Source: a virus. From it: a stretch of DNA of 43,686 nt. Below the pieces are notes generated by a model. The model saw nothing but the letters and a program-made list of their open reading frames with translations, was not told the DNA's origin and did no database searches. Numbering within the stretch: the stretch's first letter is position 1; every line of letters begins with the position of its first letter. This document shows, in pieces, positions 2,100 to 29,023 of this stretch. The DNA is taken from the IMG/VR virus record IMGVR_UViG_3300049457_000038, positions 1 through 43,686 of that record. One strand, given 5' to 3'. Made by a program: the position numbers and the translations under genes.

Positions 2100-2342
2100 A
2101 TGACTGAGCAGAAGCGATTGAGGTTCTCGTTGTACATCGATGCCGACCACTTGGACGGCTTGGAGGTCGAGCGCCAGCGTCGGATCCGGGCGGGGGCGCC
2201 GCGGTCCGAGGCCGCTCTGGCCAACCTGATCAACGAGGCCATCGGGAAGTTGCTCCACCCTGACCCCGTGGTGCGCATCAAGCGTGGCATCGAGACGGTG
2301 AAGGTCGCCGGCGAGCTGCGCCGGGCGAAGGGCGGCCGCTGA
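2100..2342 (+). CDS. Ribbon-helix-helix-like transcriptional regulator
   Basis: 80 residues from ATG at 2100, with an AGAGG ribosome binding site at 2087-2091. ATG at 2037 is an alternative that would add 21 residues and put the palindromes inside the gene. The short strand RLRFSLYI, an acidic/basic helix (LDGLEVERQRRIRAG) and a second helix (RSEAALANLINEAIGKLL) fit the Arc/MetJ type of dimeric DNA-binding protein, though helix A is longer than usual. It sits directly before the integrase gene with palindromes upstream, which suggests it controls the integrase or itself. The stop overlaps the integrase start (TGATG). Confidence 0.6.
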   Translation: MTEQKRLRFSLYIDADHLDGLEVERQRRIRAGAPRSEAALANLINEAIGKLLHPDPVVRIKRGIETVKVAGELRRAKGGR

Positions 2343-3499
2343 TGCCGCGGGGCATGCGCGGCCTGGGCGGCACGTTCAAGCGCGGCAGCATCTGGTGGGT
2401 CCAGTACTTCAACCGCGGGGAGAGGTTGCGGGAGTCGAGCAGGTCGGACAATCACGCCGTGGCGATGGCGCTCCTCAAGAAGCGGCAGGGCGAGATCGGC
2501 CTCGGCCGGCTTGTGGGGCCAGACGCCGAGCGACTGACGTTCGAGGACCTCCGCAAGATCCTCATCGCGGACTACAAGGCAAACGGCCGGAAGAGCACGG
2601 ACAGGGCGGAATCCTCGATGGCTCACCTTGCGGAGGTCTTCGGGCGGGACCGCGCGCTCAACATCACGGCGGATCGGCTCGTCAGCTATCTGGCCCACCG
2701 GCAAGACGAGGGCGCCCGGCCGGCAACGATCAAGCTCGAGCTCTCAGCGCTGAAGCGGGCGTTCAATCTTGCCGTGCGCGCGGGCCGCATCCCTGCGCGG
2801 CCGGCGTTCCCGGTGATGCAGGTCCGGAACGCACGCTCCGGATTCTTCGAGGAGTCGGAGTTCCTCGCGGTCTGCGAGCATCTCGATGATGACGTTCGAC
2901 CGCTTGCGAAGTTTCTCTACCTGGTCGGATGGCGCTCGAGCGAAGCGAAGGGCCTAGAGTGGCGCCAGGTCGACCTCAAGGCCGGCGTGCTCCGGATCGA
3001 CGACAGCAAGAGCGGCGACCCGCGGACGCTGCCGTACCGCGGGCTGTGCGAACTGGTCGAACTCATCAACGAGCAGCGAGAGCGAGCCGACGTCGTGCAG
3101 CGGGAGAAGGGCGTCATTGTGACCCACGTCTTCTTCTGGTCGGACGGGACGCGCATCCTGAATTTCCGGAACGCCTGGGACAGAGCCTGCAAGGCCTCCG
3201 GCCTGAAGAAGCGATTGGTTCACGACTTCCGCCGGACAGCCGCGCGGAACCTGAGCCGCCGCGGTGTCCCGGAGTCGGTGATCATGGCGCTCTGCGGATG
3301 GCGGACACGGAGCGTGTTCGACCGCTACCGGATCGTCAACGAAGCGGACCTGGCCGAGGGGCTGGCCAAGCTGGCGGGCCCGGGACCCGTGGTGGTTCCG
3401 GACGAGCGCGGCCGCGTCCTCCGGATGAGAACAGCCACAGAACAGCCACAATCGGCGGGAAACGGGAAGGGAGTCAAGAAGGTTGAAGGCGGTAAGTAG
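2342..3499 (+). CDS. int: Tyrosine-type site-specific integrase
   Basis: 385 residues. Catalyses integration and excision between attP and the host attB. N-terminal arm-binding-like segment about 1-55, core-binding helices about 65-155 (LTFEDLRKIL, then RPATIKLELSALKRAFNLA), and catalytic domain about 165-345. The catalytic set is visible: R198 (GWRSSEAKGLEW), K223, H294 and R297 (HDFRRTAARNL), W320 in the place often held by His, and nucleophile Y329. The gene ends beside the attP, as is usual, and its 3' end encodes two of the arm-type repeats. Start ATG at 2342 overlaps the regulator stop. Confidence 0.95.
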   Translation: MPRGMRGLGGTFKRGSIWWVQYFNRGERLRESSRSDNHAVAMALLKKRQGEIGLGRLVGPDAERLTFEDLRKILIADYKANGRKSTDRAESSMAHLAEVFGRDRALNITADRLVSYLAHRQDEGARPATIKLELSALKRAFNLAVRAGRIPARPAFPVMQVRNARSGFFEESEFLAVCEHLDDDVRPLAKFLYLVGWRSSEAKGLEWRQVDLKAGVLRIDDSKSGDPRTLPYRGLCELVELINEQRERADVVQREKGVIVTHVFFWSDGTRILNFRNAWDRACKASGLKKRLVHDFRRTAARNLSRRGVPESVIMALCGWRTRSVFDRYRIVNEADLAEGLAKLAGPGPVVVPDERGRVLRMRTATEQPQSAGNGKGVKKVEGGK

Positions 3500-7481: not shown

Positions 7482-9008
7482 ATGACCGAGCTCAAGGTGG
7501 TCGCCGTTCAGATACGAGACGTGCTGGGCGCCCGCGAGTTCTCCCTGGCGCCCGGGCGCGTCACCGTGCTCTCGGGCCGGAACGGCTCCGGCAAGAGCAC
7601 CGCGCTGCAGGCCGTGCAGGCCGCCCTCGGAGGCGGGAACCTCGCGCGGATCGCCCGGGTGGCCGCCGCCGGCGACGATGAGGAGATCGAGCCCGAAGTC
7701 GTCCTGCTCCTCGAGGGCCAGGGCCACGAGTCGTACCGGGTCGAGCGCAAGGGGGAGAAGATCCGCGTCCGCGCGCGCGTGGGCGACACCGCCGCGTTCG
7801 AGGACTTGGGCAAGCCGCAGAGCTGGCTCCGCTCGCTGTACGACCCCCAGGGCGCGAACCCGGTCACGTTCCTGACCGCGTCCGACAAGGACCGCGCGCT
7901 GCTCCTGCTCGAGGCGCTCCCGCTCGACTACAACCGCGCGGAGCTCCTGCGCGAGATGGCGATGGAGACCGACAGCCTTCTCGCGATGCCGACCGGCCTC
8001 CACCCCCTCGAGGAGATCGGCCTGATCCGGGACTCGGTGTTCAGAACCCGCACCGGCGTGAACCGGGACCTGAAGGGCAAAGCCATGGCCGGCGAGCAGA
8101 CGAGGAGGAACGCACCGGCCGTCGTGCCAGACGACCACGCCGCGGAGATTGCGAAGCTGCGCCAACAGAAGGACGAGCTGGGGCGTCAGCTCGTCGCCGA
8201 ACAAGAACGGGCAGCCGCCGAGGAGGAGCGTGCGATCACGGCGGCGCAGCACGCGCACGAGGTAGCCGAGGCGGGTGTGAACGCCGCGTTCAAGGCGGCG
8301 GCCGCCAAGCTCCGCGCGGCATTCGAACAGGGCGCGGCGGAGATCCGGGCGGCCGCCGAGAGAGAGATCGCCGCGCTCAAAGCGGCGACGGAAGCCTCCA
8401 TCAACGCGCGTCGGCTGCAAGACGAAACGGTGCTCGAGGAGGGCGACCGTGCCGCGGCCGCGGCGATGTCCGCGGCCCGGGAGGCGCGCGAGATCGCGGA
8501 TGAGCAGATCCACGCCCGCCAAGCGGTGCTCGTGGCCCTCTCGGCAACGCTCGCGGACCTCGAGGCCCAAGCCGAGCACGCCGCCCGGGCGCGCGCCCTC
8601 CACGCGCAGGCCCGGCAGTTCGACGACGAGGCCGCGGAGCTCGCCAGAGAGTCCGATCGGCTGACCGCTGCCCTTGAAGCTCTCGACGCCTTTCGCCGGC
8701 GCCTGGCGAAGGACCTCCCGATCGACGGGCTCGAAATTGAAGGCCGGGAGATCCGCGTCCACGGCGTGCCCTACGAGCAGCTCAACACCGCGCAGCGCGT
8801 AGACATCGCCGTGCGTGTCGCGTGCTTGAGGGCCCGGGGCCAGCGCCTTCCGGTGGTCTTCGTCGACGGCGCCGAGGCCCTCGACCACGAGCACTTCGAT
8901 CTCTTGGTCGACCGGCTGCAGGCCGCCGGCGTCCAGGCGTTCGTAGCGCGCGTCACGGACGAGCCGTTGACCGTCACCACGGAGGACGCGCATGCGGCCG
9001 CGGGCTGA
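7482..9008 (+). CDS. SMC/Rad50/RecF-like ATPase with coiled coil
   Basis: 508 residues from ATG at 7482. P-loop GRNGSGKST at residues 32-40, preceded by the strand GRVTVLS typical of RecF/SMC proteins. A long Ala/Glu/Arg-rich coiled coil spans about residues 215-420. Near the C-terminus LNTAQRVDIAVRVA resembles the ABC signature region and LPVVFVDGAEALD is a Walker B-like strand. Such ATPases act at DNA ends, often with a nuclease partner. Here it follows the exonuclease and probable annealing gene, so a DNA-end processing complex is plausible. The coiled coil is short compared with Rad50. Confidence 0.8.
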   Translation: MTELKVVAVQIRDVLGAREFSLAPGRVTVLSGRNGSGKSTALQAVQAALGGGNLARIARVAAAGDDEEIEPEVVLLLEGQGHESYRVERKGEKIRVRARVGDTAAFEDLGKPQSWLRSLYDPQGANPVTFLTASDKDRALLLLEALPLDYNRAELLREMAMETDSLLAMPTGLHPLEEIGLIRDSVFRTRTGVNRDLKGKAMAGEQTRRNAPAVVPDDHAAEIAKLRQQKDELGRQLVAEQERAAAEEERAITAAQHAHEVAEAGVNAAFKAAAAKLRAAFEQGAAEIRAAAEREIAALKAATEASINARRLQDETVLEEGDRAAAAAMSAAREAREIADEQIHARQAVLVALSATLADLEAQAEHAARARALHAQARQFDDEAAELARESDRLTAALEALDAFRRRLAKDLPIDGLEIEGREIRVHGVPYEQLNTAQRVDIAVRVACLRARGQRLPVVFVDGAEALDHEHFDLLVDRLQAAGVQAFVARVTDEPLTVTTEDAHAAAG

Positions 9009-9767: not shown

Positions 9768-10258
9768 AGGGCCAGTACGCCGAAGGCACGACCGTTGCCC
9801 CCGAGAAGACCCGGGCGGAGATCGAGACGGTTCTCAACCGGTACGGAGCGACCGGCTTCGCCTACGCGAGCCAGCAGCTCGGCGCCGGCGGCCGCGCGCG
9901 GATCGAGTTCTACGCGAACAACAGGCGTGTCCGGTTCGACATGGTCCTCCCGCGGAAGGATGAGCCCCGCTTCACCGAGAACCCGCGCGGTTACCCATAT
10001 CGGCCCCGGAGCGAAGGCAAGGCGCTCGCCGCCTGGGAGGGCGAGGTGCGCCGGCTGTGGCGGGCGCTGCTCCTGGCCATCAAGGCCAAGCTCGAGGTCG
10101 TCGAAAGTGGCCTCGCGATCTTCGAGGAGGAGTTCCTCGCGAACATCGTGATGCCCGACGACTCCACGGTGGGCGCGCACGCGCGGCCCTGGATTGCCCA
10201 GGCGTACGAGACGGGCCGGGTGATCGGGCTACTACCAGCGGGACCAACGACGAATTGA
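9764..10258 (+). CDS. Conserved phage protein, unknown function
   Basis: 164 residues from ATG at 9764 (ATGA overlap). An alpha/beta N-terminal half (TRAEIETVLNRYGATGFAY, then RIEFYANNRRVRFDMVLP) and a helical C-terminal half containing LWRALLLAIKAKLEVVESG and FEEEFLANIVMPDDSTV. I recognise this as a recurring phage early protein but not its function. It lies just before the ParB-like gene. Confidence 0.7.
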   Translation: MKGQYAEGTTVAPEKTRAEIETVLNRYGATGFAYASQQLGAGGRARIEFYANNRRVRFDMVLPRKDEPRFTENPRGYPYRPRSEGKALAAWEGEVRRLWRALLLAIKAKLEVVESGLAIFEEEFLANIVMPDDSTVGAHARPWIAQAYETGRVIGLLPAGPTTN

Positions 10259-10269
10259 AGGAGGGGAAA

Positions 10270-11976
10270 GTGGAACAGACATCGACAGTCGAGTCGGCCC
10301 CGCTCATTGAACCCGAATTTCGGTCCATCCCGCTCGAGGACCTCTGCGAGTCTCCGCTGAACCCGCGACGGCACTTCGACGCCGGCGAGCTGCGCGAGCT
10401 CGCGGACAGCATCCGGGCCCACGGCGTGATCACGCCCATCCTGGCGAGGCCGCTTGTCGACGATAACGGGACGCCGTTCCTGGAAATCGTCGTCGGCGCC
10501 CGTCGGGCACGCGCGGCGAAGCTCGCCGGCCTGGAGGAGATCCCTGCGCGCGTCCGTGAGCTCACCGACGCCCAGGTCCTCGAGGTCCAGGTCATCGAGA
10601 ACCTGCAGCGCGCGGACATCCACCCCCTCGAGGAGGCGGACGGCTACCGCACCCTCCACCTGAAGCACGGCTACGCCATCGAGGACCTGGCGGCGAAGGT
10701 CGGAAAGAGCCGCGGCTACGTCTACGCGCGGATGCGGTTGTGCGCCCTGGTGGAGCCGGCCCGGAAGGCGTTCCTCGAGGGCAAGCTCACTCCGTCGACG
10801 GCGCTCCTGGTTGCGCGGATCCCGGATGACGGGCTACAGGAGAAGGCCACAGCGGACATCGTCGACGACGAAATGGGAACGCGCGAGGCCTCCGAGCACC
10901 TCCAGCGGGAGTACATGCTCCGGCTCTCGGATGCCCCGTTCAACACCAGCGACCCCGGCCTGGTGCCGGCGGCCGGCGCCTGCAACACGTGCCCGAAGCG
11001 GACGGGCAACCAGCGCGAGCTCTTCGGCGACGTGAAGAGCGCGGATGTCTGCACGGACCCGCCGTGCTTCGCGCGGAAGCGGGACGCCTACTGGGCTATC
11101 GAGAAGCTCGCCGCTGAGGCCCGCGGTCAAAAGGTTCTCTCGGAGAAGGAGGCCAAGGTGGTCCTCTCTCCCTACGGCGGCGGACCGGTGGCGGGCTCTG
11201 GCTACGTCGAGCGCAGAGGCGCGTGCTTCGACGATCCCAAGGCCAGATCGTACGGGACGCTCCTCGGGAAGCGCGCGAAGGACCTGGTGGTGCTGGCGCG
11301 CGATCCGAGGACGGGCGGCGCGTGTGAGCTGATCCCGAAGGCGGCCGCGGAGAAGGCGCTCAAGGAAGCTGGGCATGCGTGGGCCCGGCCCGCGGCGAAG
11401 ACGAAGTCGTCGCCCAGCTCGGGCAAGGACCGGAAAGAGCGGGAGGCCAGGACGCGCCAAAACCAAGAGCTGAGTGATCGAGTAACCGTCGCAGCTCTGG
11501 ACCAGGTGGTTGCTGCAGTGGAACTTCACGACCTGTCGGAAAAGGACTGGCGCATGCTGGCTCCGAGCGTGATCGAGAGCGCCTTCCTCAGCGACATGAC
11601 TGGTCTTTTCGAGACCATCGTGGCACGCCGTGGGCTCAGTGATGGCAACGGCAAGGCGAAGAGGAGTAACGGTGCGGACCTGTTGCTCCATGCGCTGCCC
11701 AAGATGAAGAAGCCGCAAGTGGCGGGGCTGGCCATGGAGCTGGCGATCAGCATGCTCCGACCATCGTCGTATTCGCCACCTGGCAGCACCACCAAGGGCA
11801 TGCCAACCCAGAAAGACGTCTTCGAGCATTTCGGGGTGGACCTGAAGAAGGTGGAAGCCTCCGTCAAGGCGGAGATCGCGGCGGCCCCGAAGGCCATCAC
11901 GAAGGACAAGGCCCCACAGAAGAAGCCGGCGGCGAAGGCCAGCAAGAAGGCCCAGCGTCCGTCCGCCTCGGCGTAG
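10270..11976 (+). CDS. ParB/Srx-fold protein with zinc-finger-like insert
   Basis: 568 residues from GTG at 10270 with GGAGGGGAAA just upstream. The N-terminal ParB/sulfiredoxin-type domain shows NPRRHFD (31-37), the GARRARAAKLAG box (76-87) and ENLQRADIHPLEEA (110-123). An HTH follows at about 135-160 (IEDLAAKVGKSRGYVYARM). Later come CNTCPKR and CTDPPCF, a Cys cluster seen in phage ParB-like proteins. The C-terminus is Lys/Ala-rich. No ParA is encoded, so classical partition is unlikely; DNA binding, transcription control or nuclease activity are the options. Confidence 0.85.
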   Translation: MEQTSTVESAPLIEPEFRSIPLEDLCESPLNPRRHFDAGELRELADSIRAHGVITPILARPLVDDNGTPFLEIVVGARRARAAKLAGLEEIPARVRELTDAQVLEVQVIENLQRADIHPLEEADGYRTLHLKHGYAIEDLAAKVGKSRGYVYARMRLCALVEPARKAFLEGKLTPSTALLVARIPDDGLQEKATADIVDDEMGTREASEHLQREYMLRLSDAPFNTSDPGLVPAAGACNTCPKRTGNQRELFGDVKSADVCTDPPCFARKRDAYWAIEKLAAEARGQKVLSEKEAKVVLSPYGGGPVAGSGYVERRGACFDDPKARSYGTLLGKRAKDLVVLARDPRTGGACELIPKAAAEKALKEAGHAWARPAAKTKSSPSSGKDRKEREARTRQNQELSDRVTVAALDQVVAAVELHDLSEKDWRMLAPSVIESAFLSDMTGLFETIVARRGLSDGNGKAKRSNGADLLLHALPKMKKPQVAGLAMELAISMLRPSSYSPPGSTTKGMPTQKDVFEHFGVDLKKVEASVKAEIAAAPKAITKDKAPQKKPAAKASKKAQRPSASA

Positions 11977-19797: not shown

Positions 19798-19853
19798 TGC
19801 CCCTCTCTGCACCCCACCCCCGCCCAGCGCCAGGCTGTGCCGCCCGTGCATGA
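19797..19853 (+). CDS. 18-residue leader peptide before terS
   Basis: ATG at 19797, overlapping the previous stop (TGATG) and preceded by a strong AAGGAGGG. It encodes MPLSAPHPRPAPGCAARA and stops in an ATGA overlap with the small terminase start at 19850, which itself has no ribosome binding site. It probably couples translation of the terminase gene to the upstream gene. Confidence 0.45.
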   Translation: MPLSAPHPRPAPGCAARA

Positions 19854-20449
19854 AGGCCCGAACACGGAAGACCAAACGGCGCAAGCCAAGGGGGCGCGCT
19901 CCGAGGGTACCCACGGCTGCCCCCCCACAGGTCGTCTCAAGCAAGGGCGGTGCACCACGGAGGCCCATCGACCTCGGGGAGGTCACACGTCTCAGCCGCT
20001 TGGGCATGTGGAAGGCAGCCTCCATCGCTCGTGTGATGGGCATACCGAAGACCACCTTCACCGATGCTGCCCATGGGGAAGAGGTACGGGAGGCTATCGA
20101 GCACGGCAGGGCGCTGTTCGAGCAGGACGCATTCGAGGCCTACGACAGGGCGCTCAAGGGCGGGAAGGTGGACAAGGCCGTGTTCATCCTCGCCATCTTC
20201 AAGGTGAAACAGGTAGGGTGGACGGACAAGCAGCAGATCATTGGTCAGGGCTCAGGGATCGACACTACAGGGGCACGAGAGCGACTCAAGGAGCTGATCG
20301 GACGGAAGCGGAAGCTCATGGCTGATGGGGGCGAGGTCTCAGACCCGGGGGCGGTATCGAACTCCAAAGAGGGGGGTGGGGGGTCTCCTTCTGAGGCGGC
20401 CGGTTCGCGTACGTCTGGGTCGGAAAAAAGGACTGATGACTCTCCGTAG
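19850..20449 (+). CDS. Probable small terminase subunit
   Basis: 199 residues from ATG at 19850. Basic N-terminus (KARTRKTKRRKPRGR), then an HTH-like region WKAASIARVMGIPKTTFTDA and a helix EAIEHGRALFEQDAFEAYDR typical of phage small terminases, which recognise the packaging site and form a ring. Low-complexity C-terminal tail. It lies upstream of terL but separated by a methyltransferase-like gene. The assignment rests on these features and position. Confidence 0.65.
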   Translation: MKARTRKTKRRKPRGRAPRVPTAAPPQVVSSKGGAPRRPIDLGEVTRLSRLGMWKAASIARVMGIPKTTFTDAAHGEEVREAIEHGRALFEQDAFEAYDRALKGGKVDKAVFILAIFKVKQVGWTDKQQIIGQGSGIDTTGARERLKELIGRKRKLMADGGEVSDPGAVSNSKEGGGGSPSEAAGSRTSGSEKRTDDSP

Positions 20450-21257
20450 AGGTCCGCGTGACGGCTACGACGCCGGGATCAAGCGCCAATATCGGCGCGA
20501 CGTGTGGGCGCAGTTCCGTCGTCACTGCCCGGTACCGATGCGAGACGCCCGAGTCTTCATGCTTCCCTCCAGCGAGGGGGACGAGATCGAGGTCGCGAAG
20601 AGCCACGGGGCTCTCGAGAGAAACATCCATATCTGCGACTCCAACCCGGCTATAGTCGCCGTACTCAAGCGACGTTTCCGGGCCTGCGTCTCCCACGGGA
20701 TCCCGGCGGAACGAGCGCTCGACAAGCCGGGCGCTCGATACCACCTCATCAATCTCGATGTGTGCCAGACCGCGCTCTTTGCAGGTACCGGCGGTGCTGA
20801 AAGGGCGGCCTATGGGGCGCTCTGCACGGGTGGCGTCTTGGCCGTGACCTGGCAGAAGGGGCGAGATCGTGAAATGGCGTACTTGGCAAGGCTTTCGGCG
20901 GCGGCCGGAAGCGAGGTATCGCGCCTTTCCTGGCTGGGCCGGTTTCTTTCCGCGACTCACGCCGTCGGCGGAAAGGGTGACGGCACTCTCCGTCGACTCT
21001 ACCTCGTGAGACACAATCAATACCGTCTCGGCGCCGTGCCCATGGAGTGGGCCGCGTGGGTCTCGCGTGTAGATGGTGCGCTAAGTCCGGCCGACCTGAA
21101 ACTGGAGAACGCCGAACTGGGACTGTCACTGATGTCGCTGGCCGTAGTGAAGGAGTGCATCAAGAGAGAGCGGGCGGGAGATACGTCGTCCCCACTGACT
21201 ATCGCAGATCAGGTCCTGGATGACGGCTCATGGAAGGGCCACCTGTGGGAACGCTGA
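20436..21257 (+). CDS. Methyltransferase-like Rossmann protein
   Basis: 273 residues from ATG at 20436, overlapping the previous gene by 14 bases. VFMLPSSEGDEIEVA (40-54), HICDSNPAIVAVLKRRF with D68, and YHLINLDVCQ with D108 resemble motifs I, II and IV of class I SAM-dependent methyltransferases. No DPPY or Pro-Cys catalytic motif was seen, so the substrate (DNA, RNA or protein) is unclear. It is unusual between the terminase subunits, and its DNA looks slightly less GC-rich than its neighbours. Confidence 0.55.
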   Translation: MTLRRGPRDGYDAGIKRQYRRDVWAQFRRHCPVPMRDARVFMLPSSEGDEIEVAKSHGALERNIHICDSNPAIVAVLKRRFRACVSHGIPAERALDKPGARYHLINLDVCQTALFAGTGGAERAAYGALCTGGVLAVTWQKGRDREMAYLARLSAAAGSEVSRLSWLGRFLSATHAVGGKGDGTLRRLYLVRHNQYRLGAVPMEWAAWVSRVDGALSPADLKLENAELGLSLMSLAVVKECIKRERAGDTSSPLTIADQVLDDGSWKGHLWER

Positions 21258-22771
21258 CCTTCCCCGAGCACGGCGAGCTGCTCCCCTTCCTCGCCACCCT
21301 CCCGCCCGAGGACCTCGACGCGCTGCTCCTCGAGCTGAGCGAGGACGATGCCGCGGCGATCGAGCTCGACGAGCGCTACGCCTGGGCGAACTGGGCCAGG
21401 CCCGAGCAGCTCCCGCCGGCGGGGCACTGGCGCTTCTGGATCTGCGTCGCCGGCCGCGGCGGGGGCAAGACGCGCACCGGGGCCGAGTGGATCAACGACA
21501 AGGCGGAGGAGTACCCGGGCTGCCGCATCGGCCTCATCAGCGCGACGAAGTCCGACGTGCGGGACGTGATGATCGAGGACCCGCACTCCGGGATCCTCGC
21601 CTGCGCGCGCCCCGACTTCCGTCCGAAGTACGAGCCCAGCAAGCGCCGGCTCACCTGGCCCAATGGCACGGTGGCGATCGCCTATAGCGCCGACGAGCCC
21701 GAGCAGTCGCGCGGGGCTAACACCCACTTCGTCTGGGCTGACGAGGTCGGCAAGTGGCGCGATCCCAAGGGCTCGAAGATCACGGCCTGGGAGAACATCA
21801 CCCTCGGCTGCCGGCTAGGCCTGAACCCGCAGATCCTCGTGACCACCACGCCCCGGCGGACCGGCCGCGGCGCGGAGATCGTGAAGGACCTGACGCTCGG
21901 CAAGCGCGTCAACGGCCGGCGTCCCGTCGCGCCTGCCCAGGGCGATCCGGCCGAGTGGTGGCCGCGGCCGAACACCGTCGTCCGCCAGTGGAGCACCGAT
22001 CGGAACGCGCCGAACCTGGCCGCGTCCTTCCTCCAGGACCTCGACGAGAATTACGCGGGCACCACGCTCGAGGCGCAGGAGAAGAAAGGGATCATCCTTG
22101 ACGACGTCGAAGGCGCCATCTTCAAGATCGAGCATATTGAGCCCTACCGCGTCACGGGCGCCCCGGCCCTACAACGCGTCCTCGTTGCGGTTGATCCGAG
22201 CCACGCGGATGAGGGCACTGGAGATGGAGCTGGAATTCTGGCGGGCGGTCTGGGCGTTGACGGTGAAGTCTATGTCTGGGACGACCGGTCCATGCAGGGC
22301 TCGCCTCTCGCTTGGGCGAGGGCGGCCATCGCTCTCCACAACGAGACCAGGGCAGATGGAATTGTGATCGAAGTGACGGCGGTCCAGACCGAGAAGAAGG
22401 GCCATCCCGTGAAGGACACCATCAAGCTCGTCGTCGAGCAGGAGACGAAGGAGAGGCAGGCCCGCGCCGACCAGGAGGCGAAGGAGAAGCAGGTCGACCC
22501 AGTGAAGGTGGAGCCCTCGAGGATCAACTGGATCGAGATCCACGCGAGCGTGGACAAGCTCGGCCGGGCCCAGCCGGTGGCGCTCCTGTACGAGCAGGGG
22601 AAGGTGCACCACGTGGTCGACGCCCGGGCGCCGGACAAGCTGGCCGCGCTCGAGGACGAGCTCGTGTCGTGGGATCCTACGCAGAAGAAGTCGCCCAACC
22701 GGCTCGACGCCCTGGTGCACCTCGTGACCGAGCTGGCGCTCAGGCGCCGTGCGCCGCTGATCGCGAGGTGA
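21230..22771 (+). CDS. terL: Large terminase subunit
   Basis: 513 residues from ATG at 21230; GTG at 21245 is an alternative. The ATP-driven motor that packages DNA and cuts it. ATPase: Walker A GRGGGKT (75-81), Walker B VWADE (168-172), and TTTPRR (205-210) as the coupling motif. RNaseH-fold nuclease: VAVDPS with D322, VIEVTAV with E381, and the last Asp in NRLDAL (D493). A charged insert at about 388-425 (QETKERQARADQEAKEK) is unusual. Followed by the portal gene, as expected. Confidence 0.95.
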   Translation: MEGPPVGTLTFPEHGELLPFLATLPPEDLDALLLELSEDDAAAIELDERYAWANWARPEQLPPAGHWRFWICVAGRGGGKTRTGAEWINDKAEEYPGCRIGLISATKSDVRDVMIEDPHSGILACARPDFRPKYEPSKRRLTWPNGTVAIAYSADEPEQSRGANTHFVWADEVGKWRDPKGSKITAWENITLGCRLGLNPQILVTTTPRRTGRGAEIVKDLTLGKRVNGRRPVAPAQGDPAEWWPRPNTVVRQWSTDRNAPNLAASFLQDLDENYAGTTLEAQEKKGIILDDVEGAIFKIEHIEPYRVTGAPALQRVLVAVDPSHADEGTGDGAGILAGGLGVDGEVYVWDDRSMQGSPLAWARAAIALHNETRADGIVIEVTAVQTEKKGHPVKDTIKLVVEQETKERQARADQEAKEKQVDPVKVEPSRINWIEIHASVDKLGRAQPVALLYEQGKVHHVVDARAPDKLAALEDELVSWDPTQKKSPNRLDALVHLVTELALRRRAPLIAR

Positions 22772-22775
22772 GGAC

Positions 22776-24080
22776 ATGAATCCGCTCCGCCGACTCGTCC
22801 GGGCCGTGGCCGGGATGTTCTCCAGCGGCACGACCGCCGGCCGGACGATGATGTCGAACCTGTGGGGCTCCCGCGTGGGAGACCCGCCGATCCGCGGGAC
22901 CAGGGAGTTCCTGCAGGTCTACGAGACAAGCCCCTGGGTGCGCGCGGTGGCGGGCCGGGTGTCCTCGGCCGTCGGCTCCACCACGTGGACGCTCGACGCC
23001 GGCAGCAAGACCGTGCCCGACAACCATCTCATGCTGCGCACCCTCCGCAAGCCGAACCCGCAGATGAGCGGCCACACGCTCTTCAAGGTCACGCAGCTCT
23101 CCCTCGACCTGGTCGGAGATTCCTTCTGGTACAAGGGCCGCAACGGCCTGCGCGGCGTGGTGGAGCTCTGGCCGATTCCTCCGCACTGGGTCGCGGAGCT
23201 CCCGACCCCGAGCCGTCCGTACTTCCGGGTGCAGTACTTCGCCTGGAACGAGAACATCCCGGAGAGCGAGGTCCTCTGGATCTCGGATCCCTCGCCGGCG
23301 GACCCGTATCGCCGCGGCGCCGGCGTCGTGCGCGCGCAGTCGGACGAGCTCGAGACGCACGAGTACGCGAGCAAGCACGCGAAGCAGCTGTTCTGGAACC
23401 GGGCGATCCCCGACTTCGTGGTGATGGACGAGGACGCCGGCCCGGAGGAGATCACGCGCCACGAGCAGGCGTTCCTCCAGAAGCTCCAGGGATTCTGGCG
23501 CTGGTACAAGCCCTACTTCACGAACCGGAAGCTCGAGTTCTGGCAGCCCCAGCAGATGAACCTGGAGAACCTCACCATGGTGCCGCTGCTCAAGCACCAG
23601 CGCGACACCATCGTCCAGGCGTGGGGCTTCCCGCCCGAGCAGCTCGGGATCGTCGAGACCAGCAACCGGGCCACCGCGGACGCCTCCGACTTCATCCTCG
23701 AGAAGCGGGTGATCAAGCCCCGCCGGGACTTCCTGCGGGACGCCCTGCAGGCGCTGCTGGTGCCCGAGTACGACGAGCGCCTAGTGGTTGGGTACGTCGA
23801 TACGGTACCGGAGGACAAGGAGCACCGGCTCAACGTGGCGAAGGCGGGCCCGCACGCGCTGGAGCTGGACGAGTGGCGCGCGCTCATGGGGCTCAAGCCG
23901 GTCGGCGGCGAGCTGGGCCGGGCTCGGCTCGTGCCCCTCAACTCGTACCTGACCGTGGATCCGCTGGACCCGACCACGCGGCCCCAGGCGGCTGGCAGCG
24001 CGAAGGCGGTGCGTGGGGGCCGCAGCCTCATCCGCCGCACCGCGGACCATCCGATTCACGGAAGCAACGGCGGGGTGTAG
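22776..24080 (+). CDS. Portal protein
   Basis: 434 residues from ATG at 22776 with GTGAGGAC upstream. The HK97-type portal forms the dodecameric channel at the capsid vertex. Typical traits: IRGTREFLQVYETSPWVRAV at the start, LSLDLVGDSFWYKGRNGLRG in the wing, FWNRAIPDFVVMDEDAGPEE, and a C-terminal region of helices and turns that includes PEYDERLVVGYVDTVPEDK. Directly after terL. Confidence 0.92.
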   Translation: MNPLRRLVRAVAGMFSSGTTAGRTMMSNLWGSRVGDPPIRGTREFLQVYETSPWVRAVAGRVSSAVGSTTWTLDAGSKTVPDNHLMLRTLRKPNPQMSGHTLFKVTQLSLDLVGDSFWYKGRNGLRGVVELWPIPPHWVAELPTPSRPYFRVQYFAWNENIPESEVLWISDPSPADPYRRGAGVVRAQSDELETHEYASKHAKQLFWNRAIPDFVVMDEDAGPEEITRHEQAFLQKLQGFWRWYKPYFTNRKLEFWQPQQMNLENLTMVPLLKHQRDTIVQAWGFPPEQLGIVETSNRATADASDFILEKRVIKPRRDFLRDALQALLVPEYDERLVVGYVDTVPEDKEHRLNVAKAGPHALELDEWRALMGLKPVGGELGRARLVPLNSYLTVDPLDPTTRPQAAGSAKAVRGGRSLIRRTADHPIHGSNGGV

Positions 24081-24082
24081 TA

Positions 24083-24811
24083 GTGAACGTCCTCGCCATC
24101 ATCCCCGCACGGGGCGGCTCGAAGGGCGTGCCGGGCAAGAACGTGCGGCTGCTCGCCGGAAAGCCGCTGCTCGCCTGGTCGATCGGGGCCGCGCAGGATT
24201 CCCGTTCAGTGAACCGGATCGTGGTGTCCAGCGACAGCGCCGAGATCCTCGAGGACGGGGCCCGGTTCGGGGCTGAGCGGCTGGCGCGGCCGGCAGAGCT
24301 CGCGACCGACGACGCTCCCACGGACGAGGTCCTCGTTCACGCTCTCCTGGCGCTTGGCGTCGACGGCTACCATCCCGACCTGGTCGTGCTCCTTCAGCCG
24401 ACCGTGCCCGTACGCCGAGCCGGGCTCATCGACGCCTGCATCGATCGTCTGATGGCGACAGGCGCCGATGCGCTATTGACCGCGTACCCGTTGCACTTCG
24501 TCTGGTGGCAGGAACCGCCGTCCTACTGGTACGACAAGAAGGTCGGCGGTAGCGGCCGCCCCGCGGTGCCCTCCTGGCGCACCCAATGCCCCCGCCGCCC
24601 GCCGCGCCAGCACATGGTCGCGCGCGAGCTGATGTGGCACGAGGACGGCTCCGTGTTCGTCTGCACGGCGGAGCAGCTCCGCACCACTGGCCACCGCATA
24701 GGCGGCCGGATGGAGGTGTTCGAGACGGAGCGCACCGTCGACATCGACACCGCGGAGGACTTCGCCGTCGCCGAGGCGCTGCTCCTCGCGCGGCAGGGGT
24801 GCTGCGCGTGA
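24083..24811 (+). CDS. CMP-sugar synthetase (acylneuraminate cytidylyltransferase family)
   Basis: 242 residues from GTG at 24083. NeuA/KdsB-type enzymes join CTP to an acidic sugar such as a nonulosonic acid. Visible: IIPARGGSKGVPGKN (6-20), VVSSDSAEI (47-55), RPAELATDDAPTDE (69-82), LLQPTVPVR (103-111) and VDIDTAEDF (219-227), which supplies the metal-binding Asp residues. The full canonical set is present, so activity is likely; the sugar cannot be told from sequence. It is foreign to the portal-protease order and is followed by an HTH gene. The rest of a nonulosonate pathway is not in the window. Confidence 0.9.
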   Translation: MNVLAIIPARGGSKGVPGKNVRLLAGKPLLAWSIGAAQDSRSVNRIVVSSDSAEILEDGARFGAERLARPAELATDDAPTDEVLVHALLALGVDGYHPDLVVLLQPTVPVRRAGLIDACIDRLMATGADALLTAYPLHFVWWQEPPSYWYDKKVGGSGRPAVPSWRTQCPRRPPRQHMVARELMWHEDGSVFVCTAEQLRTTGHRIGGRMEVFETERTVDIDTAEDFAVAEALLLARQGCCA

Positions 24812-25029
24812 GCGTGATCGCGGCTCGGACCAGGCTGAGCCCCGGCGCGCCTCCACTGACGGTGACCGAGCTGGCGCTGCTGCTCGGGTGCTCACGCTCG
24901 TACGTCTACAAGCTCATCGATGCCGAGTTGCTGCATCCCGGACGCATTGGGTGGAGTTACCGCATCCCTATCGACCAGGCACGCCGGGTTGCCATCGACT
25001 GTCGCCTCCTGCCCATGGAGGCCCGATGA
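24808..25029 (+). CDS. Excisionase/AlpA-like small HTH protein
   Basis: 73 residues from GTG at 24808 (GTGA overlap with the synthetase). PLTVTELALLLGCSRSYVYK then LIDAELLHPGRIGWSYRIP is a MerR/excisionase-type winged helix (HTH_17-like). Located in the head module rather than beside int, so it may regulate the accessory pair. It could still assist excision. Confidence 0.75.
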   Translation: MSVIAARTRLSPGAPPLTVTELALLLGCSRSYVYKLIDAELLHPGRIGWSYRIPIDQARRVAIDCRLLPMEAR

Positions 25030-25136
25030 GAATCACGGCGACAGTAGTCGACTGATTCAGATAGGCTTACGACGAATGATCACACAGCTTAAAGGACCCC
25101 ATTGCCATCGCTCGTCCGTGGTACGCACCATGCTAC
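25030..25136. other. Non-coding gap before the prohead protease
   Basis: About 107 bases, less GC-rich than its surroundings. An imperfect palindrome around GTCGAC (CAGTAGTCGACTG, 25051-25063 approximately) is the only notable element. No clear promoter or terminator seen. The gap borders the accessory pair, so it may be a scar of its insertion. AAAGGA at 25091-25096 lies before an in-frame ATT at 25101. Confidence 0.5.
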
Positions 25137-26159
25137 GTGCGCCTCTTTGTCGGCCTCGATGAGTGGAAGCTCCGCACGCGGGCGGGCGAAGCCCCCACCG
25201 AAGCGATCCTGCGCAAGCAGTACATCCCCGACCTGGTCAAGGACGCCGGCGCCCGGAAGGTCACCTTCGTCATCAGCACCGGCTCGGTCGATCGTGAGCG
25301 CGACACGCTCAGGGCCGACGGCTGGCACCTCGACGCCTACCGCCGCAATCCCGTGGTCCTCTGGGGCCACCAGAGCCGTGATCTGCCGATCGGGACCGCC
25401 GAGTCCATCGGAACCTCCGCCGGCGTCCTGAAGGCTACCGCTCGCTTCGCCGAGCCGGGCAAGGACTACCAGCCGGACGAGTGGCCGTCGCACTTGCCCA
25501 CGCCGGACACCGTTCTCTCCATGATCCGCGGCGGCTTCCTCCGCGCGACGTCCGTCGGTTTCATGCCAGTGCGCGACAAGGCGAAGTGGAACGAGGAGAG
25601 GGGCGGCGTCGACTTCGAGGAGCAGGAGCTGCTCGAGTTCTCGATCGTCCCTGTCCCGGCCAACGCCGAGGCGCTCGTCGAGGCCAAGGCCGCCGGCCTG
25701 GACGTCGCCCCCTTCGTCGAGCAGCTCAAGCGCTGCCTGGACTCGTTCGAGCCCGGCTGCTGGGTGGCGAAGGAGCAGGCCGAGGCCGCGCTCCGGGCGA
25801 TCGCGGCGCCGCGCATCGTGGTGCCCGAGCTCGTGGGCAAGGTCCTCGACTTCGCGATCGTCATCGGCAAGCGCGGCCGCGTCCTCTCCCAGGCCAATGA
25901 GGACCGCCTGCGGGCGGCCCGCGACGCCGGCGCCGAAGGCTGCGCGCTGCTCGAAGAGGTCCTCACCCAGGTCGCGGCGGCGCCCCCGGAACCCTCCGAC
26001 GAGGCGGCCGCCGCGCCCAAGGCAGCGCCGGTCCTGTTCATGGCTCCGAGCGAGCCGACTTACGCAGTCGACCCAAGCGTCGTACGGGCGGCCGTGATGG
26101 CCGCGGTAACAGAGACGGTCGTGTCTCAGATCAACGAGGCGCGCGGCCGGCTCGACTGA
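25137..26159 (+). CDS. HK97-type prohead protease
   Basis: 340 residues from GTG at 25137. The herpesvirus-like serine protease of HK97-type phages cleaves the scaffold and capsid N-terminus during maturation. Motifs: RRNPVVLWGHQSRDLP with catalytic H78, RATSVGFMP with S139, and EFSIVPVPANAEAL, with Ser169. The C-terminal ~150 residues are Ala/Pro-rich and may act as a scaffold. The start is uncertain: no ribosome binding site precedes GTG 25137, while AAAGGA precedes an unusual in-frame ATT at 25101. Confidence 0.88.
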   Translation: MRLFVGLDEWKLRTRAGEAPTEAILRKQYIPDLVKDAGARKVTFVISTGSVDRERDTLRADGWHLDAYRRNPVVLWGHQSRDLPIGTAESIGTSAGVLKATARFAEPGKDYQPDEWPSHLPTPDTVLSMIRGGFLRATSVGFMPVRDKAKWNEERGGVDFEEQELLEFSIVPVPANAEALVEAKAAGLDVAPFVEQLKRCLDSFEPGCWVAKEQAEAALRAIAAPRIVVPELVGKVLDFAIVIGKRGRVLSQANEDRLRAARDAGAEGCALLEEVLTQVAAAPPEPSDEAAAAPKAAPVLFMAPSEPTYAVDPSVVRAAVMAAVTETVVSQINEARGRLD

Positions 26160-26172
26160 GGAGAGAACGCCA

Positions 26173-27552
26173 ATGCAGAACCTCCGCGTCAAGGCGCCGT
26201 TCCCCGGGTGGCCCCGGGTTGGCGGCGGCGCCACGCCTCCGGTTCCGGTTCCCGCCCCGACGCCCCCGCCCGTACCGATGACCCGGGCCGACCTTCAGGC
26301 CCTGATCACCGAAACGGCGAAGGAGGCGATCGGCCCCGCGGTCAAGGCCGCCCTCGAGCCGCTGACCAAGGCCCAGGGTGATGTGATGGAGCGCATCGTG
26401 CGGGCGCTGCCTGGCCACGCGGATGACGCCACGACCTGGGACGACAAGATCCTCGGCAAGTGGCCGATCGGCCGCAAGGTGCGCGCGCTCCACATGGCGG
26501 TCCTCGAGAACCGGACCCAGGATCCCGATGCGGCCATTCACGCGATCAAGAACGCCGAGGGCTGGCCGGCTTCCGTCGCCGAGCCCACGATCAAGTGGCT
26601 GCAGCACGTCAAGACCACGCTCACGGCGGGCACCGCCGCCACCGCCGGCGACATGGTCATGCCCGAGTACGACCCCCAGTGGATCGAGCTGCTCCGGCCC
26701 AACACCGTCATCCGCAACATCGCCAACACGCTGCCGATGCCGAGGGGCGCGACGTCCCGGCGGAAGCAGACGGGCGCAGGCACGGCCTACTACCAGGGGG
26801 AGACGGACCGCATCACGCTCTCGAACCTGACCGTTGCGCGCGTGAACCTGAGCTACAAGAAGCTCACTGCGCTGAGCGTCATCTCCAACGACCTGATCCG
26901 CTTCTCCGCCGGCGAGGCGGACCGCCTGGTGCAGACCGACCTGCTCAAGCAGATCGCGCTCCGCGAAGACCGGGCCTTCCTCGTCGGGAACCCGCCCACG
27001 GACGCTGGCTCGCCCCAGGGGATCCGCTACCAGACCGCAGCCTCGAACATCTACGCCAGTGCGGGCGTGACACTGGCCAACTTCCAGGCCGACCTCACCA
27101 AGGCGATCCGCCTGGTCGAGGAAGCCGACATCGTCGGCGCCGTCGACGAGTTCGTCTGGCTCATGTCGCCGGCGACCTACTGGGTAATCTACGCGCTCGC
27201 CACCACCACCGGCGACTGGATGTTCGCCGACGTCCTGAAGACGGGCCGCCTGTTCGGCTTCCCGATCGTCAAGGCGCGGCAGCTCAAGGAGAGCCGCCTG
27301 GCCGGCTTCGCCGGCGTCGCCGCCGGGTCCTCGGGTCTGATCATGTTCGTGCACGGGCCCAGCCTCGAGATCCACGACTCCATGCAGCGGACCATCCAGA
27401 CCTACATCGGCGGCGCCTACTACGATCCCGCGCTGGCCGCGGTGGCCTCGGGAATCTCGAACGACGAAACGGTCGTGACCTGCATCTCGGAGCACGACTT
27501 CCTGCAGGTCTACGACGTCGGCGCGTCGGTGATCACGGGATACGCGACGTAA
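26173..27552 (+). CDS. Major capsid protein
   Basis: 459 residues from ATG at 26173 with GAGGAGAGAA upstream. HK97-fold shell protein. A Pro-rich N-terminal stretch and a helical region to about residue 150 probably form the cleaved scaffold-like domain. The shell domain begins near TAATAGDMVMPEYDPQWIEL and includes RQTGAGTAYYQGE-like, SVISNDLIRFSAGEADRLVQ, LREDRAFLVGN and a C-terminal SEHDFLQVYDVGASVITGYA. Next to protease and portal, in the usual order. Confidence 0.9.
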   Translation: MQNLRVKAPFPGWPRVGGGATPPVPVPAPTPPPVPMTRADLQALITETAKEAIGPAVKAALEPLTKAQGDVMERIVRALPGHADDATTWDDKILGKWPIGRKVRALHMAVLENRTQDPDAAIHAIKNAEGWPASVAEPTIKWLQHVKTTLTAGTAATAGDMVMPEYDPQWIELLRPNTVIRNIANTLPMPRGATSRRKQTGAGTAYYQGETDRITLSNLTVARVNLSYKKLTALSVISNDLIRFSAGEADRLVQTDLLKQIALREDRAFLVGNPPTDAGSPQGIRYQTAASNIYASAGVTLANFQADLTKAIRLVEEADIVGAVDEFVWLMSPATYWVIYALATTTGDWMFADVLKTGRLFGFPIVKARQLKESRLAGFAGVAAGSSGLIMFVHGPSLEIHDSMQRTIQTYIGGAYYDPALAAVASGISNDETVVTCISEHDFLQVYDVGASVITGYAT

Positions 27553-27583
27553 AGCGGCGCACAGGAAATAAGGAGAAAGCTCA

Positions 27584-28189
27584 ATGACCCCTGCAAGCCT
27601 CGGCGACCTGGGATACCAGGTCACCGCCGTGATGCCGTTCAGCACCTCCACGGCCCGGTATATGGTGCTGCGGCTCGCCACGGCGTCCGACACCGGAACC
27701 CTGCTCACCACCGGCCGCACGGTCGACCTGAGCCGGCTCCAGCACTTCGGCGCCACCGGCGGCAAGCCGCTGGACGCGACGGTTCATCCACGGGCCGGCG
27801 GGCCCACGCGCCTGCACGACATCAGCGTGGTGCTCCCGCTCGAGCTCCAGTTCCACGACTCGGGCCTGAACTTCTTCGCCACCGTCGCCCACAAGACGCG
27901 CGCGGCCGCTTCGGGAGCGGGCTCGACGTGGGTGACCATGAAGACCGACCAGCGGCGCGTGAAAATGGGCACCGACACGGACGCCTACTTCCACACGGGC
28001 TTTGTCTCCAGCGTGAACGCGCAGGCCATCCAGAAGTTCTACAAGGCCAACATCACCTTCTCGTTCCGCAAGGCATCGTCGACGGCGGCGAAGGACACGA
28101 CCACCGCCATCGGCCTGGTCTGCAACTCCCCGATGATCCTCATCCGGGGCGGGCAGATGCCCTCGCAGCACGGCCCGAGGCCCGTCTAG
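27584..28189 (+). CDS. Putative head-associated structural protein
   Basis: 201 residues from ATG at 27584 with AAGGAGAAAG upstream. Strand-rich (GYQVTAVMPFSTSTARYMVL, DISVVLPLELQFHDSGLNFF, AFYKANITFSFRKA-like). By its position after the capsid gene it may be a decoration or minor head protein. The fold was not recognised. Confidence 0.55.
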   Translation: MTPASLGDLGYQVTAVMPFSTSTARYMVLRLATASDTGTLLTTGRTVDLSRLQHFGATGGKPLDATVHPRAGGPTRLHDISVVLPLELQFHDSGLNFFATVAHKTRAAASGAGSTWVTMKTDQRRVKMGTDTDAYFHTGFVSSVNAQAIQKFYKANITFSFRKASSTAAKDTTTAIGLVCNSPMILIRGGQMPSQHGPRPV

Positions 28190-28192
28190 GCC

Positions 28193-29023
28193 GTGGCCGA
28201 GTCGATCTTCATTCCGCAGTCGGGCGCCGTTGGCCTGACTGCGGGGAACACCTCCTCGTGGGACAGCGGTTCGCTCCTGAAGATCGCGCCGCGCCCAGGC
28301 CGCAAGGTCGCCATCCTCGGCTTCGGCCCCACGGTCCGGGAGTGCCCCTGGCGCGACGAGTCGTGGGAGCTCTGGGGCATGAACGGTTTCTGGCGCGCGG
28401 CGCAGCCCGACTTCGGGATCGAGGCGCCGGAAGAGCGGTACACCTGCTGGTTCGACATGCACACCGAGGGCTACACCAAGGCCTACGGGGAGGCCGCGGG
28501 CTTCGGCGACCGGCAGGAGGTCTGGCTCCGTCAGGATCACGCGTTCCCGATCCTCACCCTCGAGAACTATCCGGTCGAGGACGTCGTCCGCAAGCTCGGC
28601 CGCGAGTACTTCACCAGCACCATCGCATACGCGCTCGCCTACGCCCTGGCCGTCGAGAACGTGGGCGAGATCGGTCTGTGGGGCATCGACCTGGTGCACG
28701 GAACGGAGTGGGGCGACCAGCGGCCGTGCGCGGAGTACTGGATCGGCCGCGCCGAGGCCATGGGGATCAAGGTCACCATCCATGAGCAGTCGGCCCTGCT
28801 CAAGCAGCGCTTCCGGTACGGCTACGAGATCGAGAACCCCCTGGCGAAGGACCTGCGCGGCCTCCTCCAAGAGCAGGCAGAGGGGCTCTCCAAGGCCATC
28901 GTGAACCATCAGGCGGAGATCGCGCGCGTCACGGGCCAGATGCACACCGACAACGGCGCCCTCCAGGTCATCAACGCCCTGGCCGCGCGCATCGAGATCT
29001 GGGGCCGCGGAGGACGGGTCTGA
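28193..29023 (+). CDS. Rossmann-type phage protein, possibly DUF115/glycosyltransferase-like
   Basis: 276 residues from GTG at 28193, no clear ribosome binding site. A Rossmann start RKVAILGFGPTVREC (37-51), then WELWGMNGFWR, a Asp-His-containing WFDMH (86-90), EYFTSTIAYALAYALA, and EIGLWGIDLVHG (159-170). This pattern is common in phage head modules. It recalls DUF115 and sialyltransferase-like folds, some of which use CMP-sugars; I cannot confirm that. A CMP-sugar synthetase gene lies about 3.4 kb upstream in the same module, so sugar transfer is a hypothesis. Confidence 0.6.
   Translation: MAESIFIPQSGAVGLTAGNTSSWDSGSLLKIAPRPGRKVAILGFGPTVRECPWRDESWELWGMNGFWRAAQPDFGIEAPEERYTCWFDMHTEGYTKAYGEAAGFGDRQEVWLRQDHAFPILTLENYPVEDVVRKLGREYFTSTIAYALAYALAVENVGEIGLWGIDLVHGTEWGDQRPCAEYWIGRAEAMGIKVTIHEQSALLKQRFRYGYEIENPLAKDLRGLLQEQAEGLSKAIVNHQAEIARVTGQMHTDNGALQVINALAARIEIWGRGGRV

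Follow-up and report, generated by a model that had tools for sequence, protein, structure and literature searches.

Maf enzymes transfer CMP-nonulosonates (CMP, cytidine monophosphate) in the cytoplasm, directly to Ser/Thr residues of self-assembling flagellin. Their central domain is CstII-like, their C-terminal domain is helical, and both Neu5Ac and Kdo are tolerated as donors (PMC11339370). Among phages, mycobacteriophages (Che8 and others) are described as encoding glycosyltransferases that glycosylate capsid or tail-tube protein (Freeman et al. 2023, cited in PMC11256854 and PMC12619734). Here we analyze a 43,686-nucleotide stretch of viral DNA, IMG/VR virus record IMGVR_UViG_3300049457_000038, referred to below, at its full length, as the window. 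Its head module encodes a NeuA-type CMP-sugar synthetase and a Rossmann protein with a distant likeness to sialyltransferases. The two probably constitute a phage-encoded glycosylation pair by which a CMP-nonulosonate, made from host sugar, is moved onto a head protein. The genes in question are:

24083..24811, plus strand: NeuA-type CMP-nonulosonate (sialic-acid-like) cytidylyltransferase, 242 amino acids (aa), from Pfam, PDB and motifs
24808..25029, plus strand: small helix-turn-helix (HTH; HTH_17/excisionase-like) protein, 73 aa, from HTH_17 and TIGR01764
28193..29023, plus strand: Rossmann, GT42/Maf-like putative CMP-nonulosonate transferase, 276 aa, from family profile and predicted model

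With GT42 sialyltransferases (CstII and CstI of Campylobacter; PF06002) the phage Rossmann protein shares a Rossmann domain, a GxGPS-like N-terminal loop, an Asn after the second strand and a hydroxyl pair ahead of the helix preceding GID, and they are the sole PDB family reached by its profile. Unlike them, it is unmatched by PF06002, has no identified equivalent of His188 or Tyr156, and possesses in addition an EY-xx-QRP motif and a long helix at its C-terminus. The likeness to Maf (PF01973, MptE-like/Maf_flag10) lies in the proposed cytoplasmic transfer from a CMP-nonulosonate to a self-assembling protein and in the combination of a CstII-like domain with a helical C-terminus; in contrast to Maf, the phage protein is unmatched by PF01973, has a single short domain and is encoded beside capsid genes, not flagellin. 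The window NeuA belongs to the same fold family as NeuA/PseF cytidylyltransferases and has their active-site motifs and metal-site DxD, but it scores under the PseF curated cut-off and is located in a phage head operon. As in mycobacteriophage virion glycosylation, a phage-encoded glycosyltransferase is proposed to act on a virion protein; the passages describing the mycobacteriophage system mention neither a CMP-sugar synthetase nor a GT42-like enzyme. A literature search, outside which most subscription journals lay, found no paper on a phage NeuA/GT42-like pair.

The NeuA/Rossmann pairing is supported most strongly by gene neighbourhood. Both genes were present in eight of eight contigs (L002, L007, L008, L010, L012, L013, L223 and L225), the count covering only contigs fetched via the Rossmann or capsid protein and spanning the head module; NeuA is cut by the contig end in L008 and is also cut in L225. 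Three positions of NeuA were found: after the portal gene, after the gene for terminase large subunit (TerL; L002, L026), and immediately 3′ of the Rossmann gene (L012, L021). In L002, NeuA is 47% and the Rossmann protein 49–52% identical to the window proteins, though the portal gene has moved downstream. Portal genes relocated 3′ of an adaptor gene lie at L002:7371-8750 and L026:10667-11971, with NeuA remaining between terminase and protease. Pairwise identities over nine contigs revealed that the Rossmann protein follows the major capsid protein (MCP; r 0.89) and NeuA follows neither (r 0.17 and 0.15), coefficients that are descriptive because the 36 contig pairs behind them are non-independent. 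The window and L021 share 38% identity in the Rossmann protein, 40% in the MCP and 64% in NeuA. Since the divergence of NeuA is decoupled from that of the head genes and its gene occupies three positions, a pattern that mere linkage would not yield, NeuA appears to have been kept, or repeatedly re-acquired or exchanged, under selection, yet it is always present in the window's phage group.

The Rossmann-family DNA motif GxD-x5-EYxxQRP drew 119 viral loci in stretches of about 8.5 kb, and 117 of them hold the family. A shuffled-residue control pattern drew 2 stretches compared to at least 120 for the real one; the motif is therefore real. The neighbourhood control, for which the shuffled pattern is unusable, consisted of the 91 loci that a portal motif drew, their portals confirmed and their mean length equal to that of the family loci. 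The neuA gene was detected in 12 of 117 motif-selected loci and in 1 of 91 portal-selected controls (Fisher p 0.0075), and neuA, neuB or neuC in 15 of 117. Two of the portal controls contained the Rossmann gene, and the sole neuA-bearing control contig is one of these two, with the homologue beside neuA. In two loci a whole nonulosonate pathway lies inside the head operon, joined to the Rossmann gene: L058 (550-7783) has the order NeuB-SDR-NeuA-Rossmann-portal-protease-MCP, and L076 (4954-11969) the order NeuB-NeuC-radical SAM-NeuA-195 aa-Rossmann-portal, with NeuB, NeuC and the portals confirmed by Pfam. NeuB and NeuA were found within a few kb of each other in L081, L125, L160, L204, L209 and L219. 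Six of ten bacterial genome bins holding a Rossmann homologue had a strong NeuB, although phage contigs may be misplaced in such bins and NeuB is widespread, matching in 9 of 14 control genomes as well. A contig from a Gallionellaceae metagenome-assembled genome (L328, JAQTLU010000022.1) encodes a portal, protease, MCP and Rossmann homologue in what resembles a prophage head module; an open reading frame (ORF) judged by eye to be Mu F-like sits where the window has NeuA.

The remaining recognizable head-module genes of the window are:

21230..22771, plus strand: TerL (Terminase_6N, 72 bits), context
22776..24080, plus strand: portal protein (Phage_portal, 112.7 bits), context
25137..26159, plus strand: prohead protease (Peptidase_S78, 28.4 bits; PHROG head maturation protease), context
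26173..27552, plus strand: HK97-type MCP (Phage_capsid, 90 bits), possible acceptor
27584..28189, plus strand: conserved 201-aa head-module protein, its homologue directly before the Rossmann gene in relatives, possible acceptor

The module thus runs TerL, portal, NeuA, HTH, S78 protease, HK97 MCP, 201-aa protein, 276-aa Rossmann protein, 64-aa and 298-aa proteins. An initial annotation, made from the window sequence, had placed a NeuA-type synthetase with an HTH partner between portal and protease and a Rossmann protein after the capsid genes; gene order agrees on both points, and for the synthetase so do Pfam, PDB and motifs. NeuA starts 2 nt past the portal stop, and the Rossmann gene 3 nt past its upstream neighbour. 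G+C by codon position (0.72/0.50/0.89 for NeuA, 0.66/0.46/0.93 for the Rossmann gene) is in both cases like that of neighbouring genes. The two ORFs are real late-operon genes, not chance frames.

Wherever an HK97 capsid gene was detectable in the motif-selected loci, the Rossmann gene followed it on the same strand (42 of 42, median distance about 0.8 kb); the portal gene was upstream in 19 of 19. A homologue of 27584-28189 is immediately 5′ of the Rossmann gene in L002, L003 and L007-L013, always where it was detected in the window's clade. The fixed head-module place of the Rossmann gene makes action on the phage head most likely, and since the 201-aa gene adjoins it upstream, its product or the MCP would be the first acceptor candidate. 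The initial annotation had left the target as virion or host surface. The virion is favoured, because the Rossmann gene is 3′ of the capsid gene in every phage with a detectable capsid gene, and the host surface is disfavoured.

As judged from sequence, the enzyme class of NeuA is secure and its exact sugar acid less so. The ORF has a GTG start, and its product scores 68.7 bits with Pfam CTP_transf_3, above the curated cut-off of 22.6. The nearest solved structures are NeuA enzymes, CMP-Neu5Ac synthetases (9ftb, 3e-21; 6ifd, 1e-20; 1eyr, 3e-19). The best NCBIfam model is PseF (TIGR03584) at 107 bits, below the equivalog cut-off of 205.7, so that PseF membership is not assigned. The motifs ARGGSKGVPGKN, LLQPTVPVR and DIDT are all intact, and their positions, both DIDT aspartates included, align with Neisseria NeuA (1eyr). 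We take the active-site roles to be CTP binding by the ARxxSKxxPxKN motif (R10/K14/K19-N20), with R69 before PxxLA, Q105-P106-T107, and metal binding by the DxD pair D220/D222. Identity as KdsB was rejected: KdsB NCBIfam scores were far under cut-offs, and NeuA/PseF scored higher. A viral scan with the single NeuA protein gave no match, and relatives were found once a second NeuA was aligned. The HTH gene overlaps the NeuA stop by 4 nt; its product matches HTH_17 (34.8 bits) and the excisionase-family domain TIGR01764 (33.8 bits). An HTH homologue lies 3′ of NeuA also in L013, and a similar ORF, seen by eye, in L223.

A NeuB profile search gave no match in the window record, which may be a fragment, so that gene absences apply to this record alone. 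Nor was NeuB found in five related records that have both NeuA and the Rossmann gene, of which two measure 42 and 55 kb. The initial claim that sugar synthesis genes are missing thus stands for NeuB in this record; it does not carry over to related phages, some of which have NeuB/NeuC.

The single 276-aa Rossmann sequence matched nothing in Pfam, PHROGs, NCBIfam or the PDB. More than 100 phage homologues were found in viral contigs, forming a large and divergent family whose broad alignments are too variable for pattern scans. Near-invariant residues (window numbering) are G43, P52, W61, F87, H90, P127, F140, A151, G164, D166 and E172, further Y173 (Trp in the window), Q176, R177, P178, A187, G191 and Y209; H169 is invariant within the window's clade. 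Profiles were searched against 177,635 PDB sequences. With a 29-member profile, nine of nine matches at E<=10 were GT42 sialyltransferases (best 7e-4). With an 86-member, mostly motif-selected profile, the first nine of ten were (best 4e-4), the tenth being a Cache protein at E 1.8. The GT42 matches comprised CstII, the lipooligosaccharide sialyltransferase 9c08 and CstI, with nothing else above noise; in a leave-one-out analysis the best E stayed between 2e-4 and 4e-3. By residue count, Ser-Thr 142-143 and N64 fall where CstII has T131-S132 and N31. CstII Tyr156, which binds phosphate, had no positional counterpart.

An isolated-phage homologue, L005:7941-8744 (PP496355.1, Microcystis phage Mvi-Yong1342-1), is annotated 'type 11 methyltransferase', probably a misannotation; the name was not adopted, no methyltransferase model matching. 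A second, divergent paralogue occurs between portal and NeuA at L223:785-1347, and two Rossmann copies each are present in L041, L057, L062 and L219. A narrow window-clade profile gave no confirmed match in bacterial genomes.

The AlphaFold model of the full Rossmann protein (pLDDT 86) predicts a core of about residues 34-214 and a long C-terminal helix, 216-271. Foldseek comparison of this model with the PDB placed CstII chains at ranks 1-4 with probability 1.00 and TM-scores of only 0.3-0.4, and human ST8SiaIII at rank ten. In the viral library it returned two MptE-like phage proteins besides unnamed ones. The fold evidence for a GT42 likeness is mixed.

Several results weigh against a sialyltransferase-like pair. 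The isolated core, modelled at pLDDT 96, gave no significant Foldseek match in the PDB and did not reproduce the CstII ranking; thiamine pyrophosphokinase had the best TM-score among the matches listed, 0.46. The structure comparison with GT42 that the initial annotation proposed therefore came out divided between full model and core. With a ten-member profile of the window's clade alone, the GT42 signal was lost and only noise remained in the PDB. At E<=10 the curated CST-I model PF06002 matched none of 17 records, control genomes being likewise unmatched, and the MptE-like/Maf model PF01973 also matched none of 17, while nine control genomes do match it. No counterpart of the catalytic His188 of CstII could be placed, the profile alignments stopping before that residue, and the sequence link to GT42 is weak in absolute terms. 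Finally, about 90% of Rossmann homologues had no neuA within the stretch sampled, so the family's tie to NeuA is not a strict one. Since the core did not reproduce the full-model ranking, we call the Rossmann protein GT42/Maf-like, on the strength of its sequence profile, and do not class it as a GT42 member.

Some of these observations would also suit a different function: the Rossmann protein might help to assemble or complete the head, or be some other enzyme of the thiamine-pyrophosphokinase/MptE fold group that binds nucleotides, with NeuA as unlinked cargo. The core-only comparison, the many homologues with no nearby neuA and the fixed head-module place are all consistent with this. We consider this unlikely, as NeuA pairs recurrently with the Rossmann gene at three positions despite NeuA exchange, the genes share operons with NeuB/NeuC, and the sole sequence-profile signal points to sialyltransferases. 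The reading given in the initial annotation is partly borne out: its coupling of a CMP-sugar synthetase with a sialyltransferase-like partner draws strong independent support from conserved co-occurrence, from the NeuB/NeuC/NeuA operons and from profile matches confined to GT42, and the transferase role stays putative. It is decidedly unlikely that the pair instead sialylates host lipopolysaccharide, capsule or teichoic glycans, altering phage receptors (superinfection exclusion or serotype conversion) as temperate-phage glycosyltransferases do. The window does encode a tyrosine integrase (2342-3499; PF00589, 65.9 bits), so the phage may be temperate, and lipooligosaccharide is a substrate of GT42 enzymes, CstII among them. 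However, serotype-conversion genes normally code for membrane proteins and lie close to the attachment site, whereas both genes here are within the late head operon with no accompanying membrane or export gene, and the homologue follows the MCP in all 42 loci. Modification of phage DNA, not protein, by the CMP-sugar is very improbable: phage glycosyltransferases that hypermodify DNA are described (Pyle et al. 2024, cited in PMC12619734), but no base-hypermodification genes were recognised in the scanned parts of the window, and the two genes are placed among head, not replication, genes.

The simplest reading is that of a Maf-type phage enzyme that would act on the capsid protein. NeuA, on strong homology, would use CTP to activate a nonulosonic acid, a 2-keto sugar acid of the sialic/legionaminic/pseudaminic kind, giving the CMP-sugar; the free sugar acid would come from the host, because this record has no NeuB, and related phages would bring their own NeuB/NeuC. 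The Rossmann protein, as a distant relative of the GT42/Maf sialyltransferase domain, would then move the sugar from CMP directly onto a virion head protein in the cytoplasm, with the capsid protein or the conserved 201-aa product of the adjoining upstream gene as the likeliest acceptor. An acidic sugar would thus be displayed on the particle surface, where it would be likely to affect stability, adsorption or recognition. The donor would thus derive from host sugar and phage NeuA here, from phage NeuB/NeuC/NeuA in some phages, and from the host alone in most, the last in keeping with the strong NeuB of six in ten bacterial bins, subject to the caveats on those bins given above. Beyond the window, we tentatively suggest, as a possibility short of probable, a widespread phage family, so far without a name, of short GT42/Maf-like O-glycosyltransferases, encoded just 3′ of the capsid gene, that decorates heads with nonulosonic acids; many members would borrow the host CMP-sugar, some would bring only NeuA and some the whole sialic-acid pathway.

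Elsewhere in the window, the left arm encodes a ParB-like protein (10057-11976; ParB_N and HTH_ParB) and an SMC/AAA-like ATPase (7482-9008). A 310-aa protein with no Pfam or PHROG match is encoded at 20325-21257, between a small ORF at 19850 and TerL.

If the proposed glycosylation pair is real, the unexplained sugar-nucleotide genes frequent in phage genomes would serve to decorate the particle with sialic-acid-type sugars, perhaps along the lines of flagellin glycosylation. A large head-module protein family that lacks Pfam or PHROG annotation would be accounted for, and virion glycosylation in phages would gain a further donor chemistry, new to it. Such decoration would bear on how phage particles encounter hosts, other cells and immune systems.

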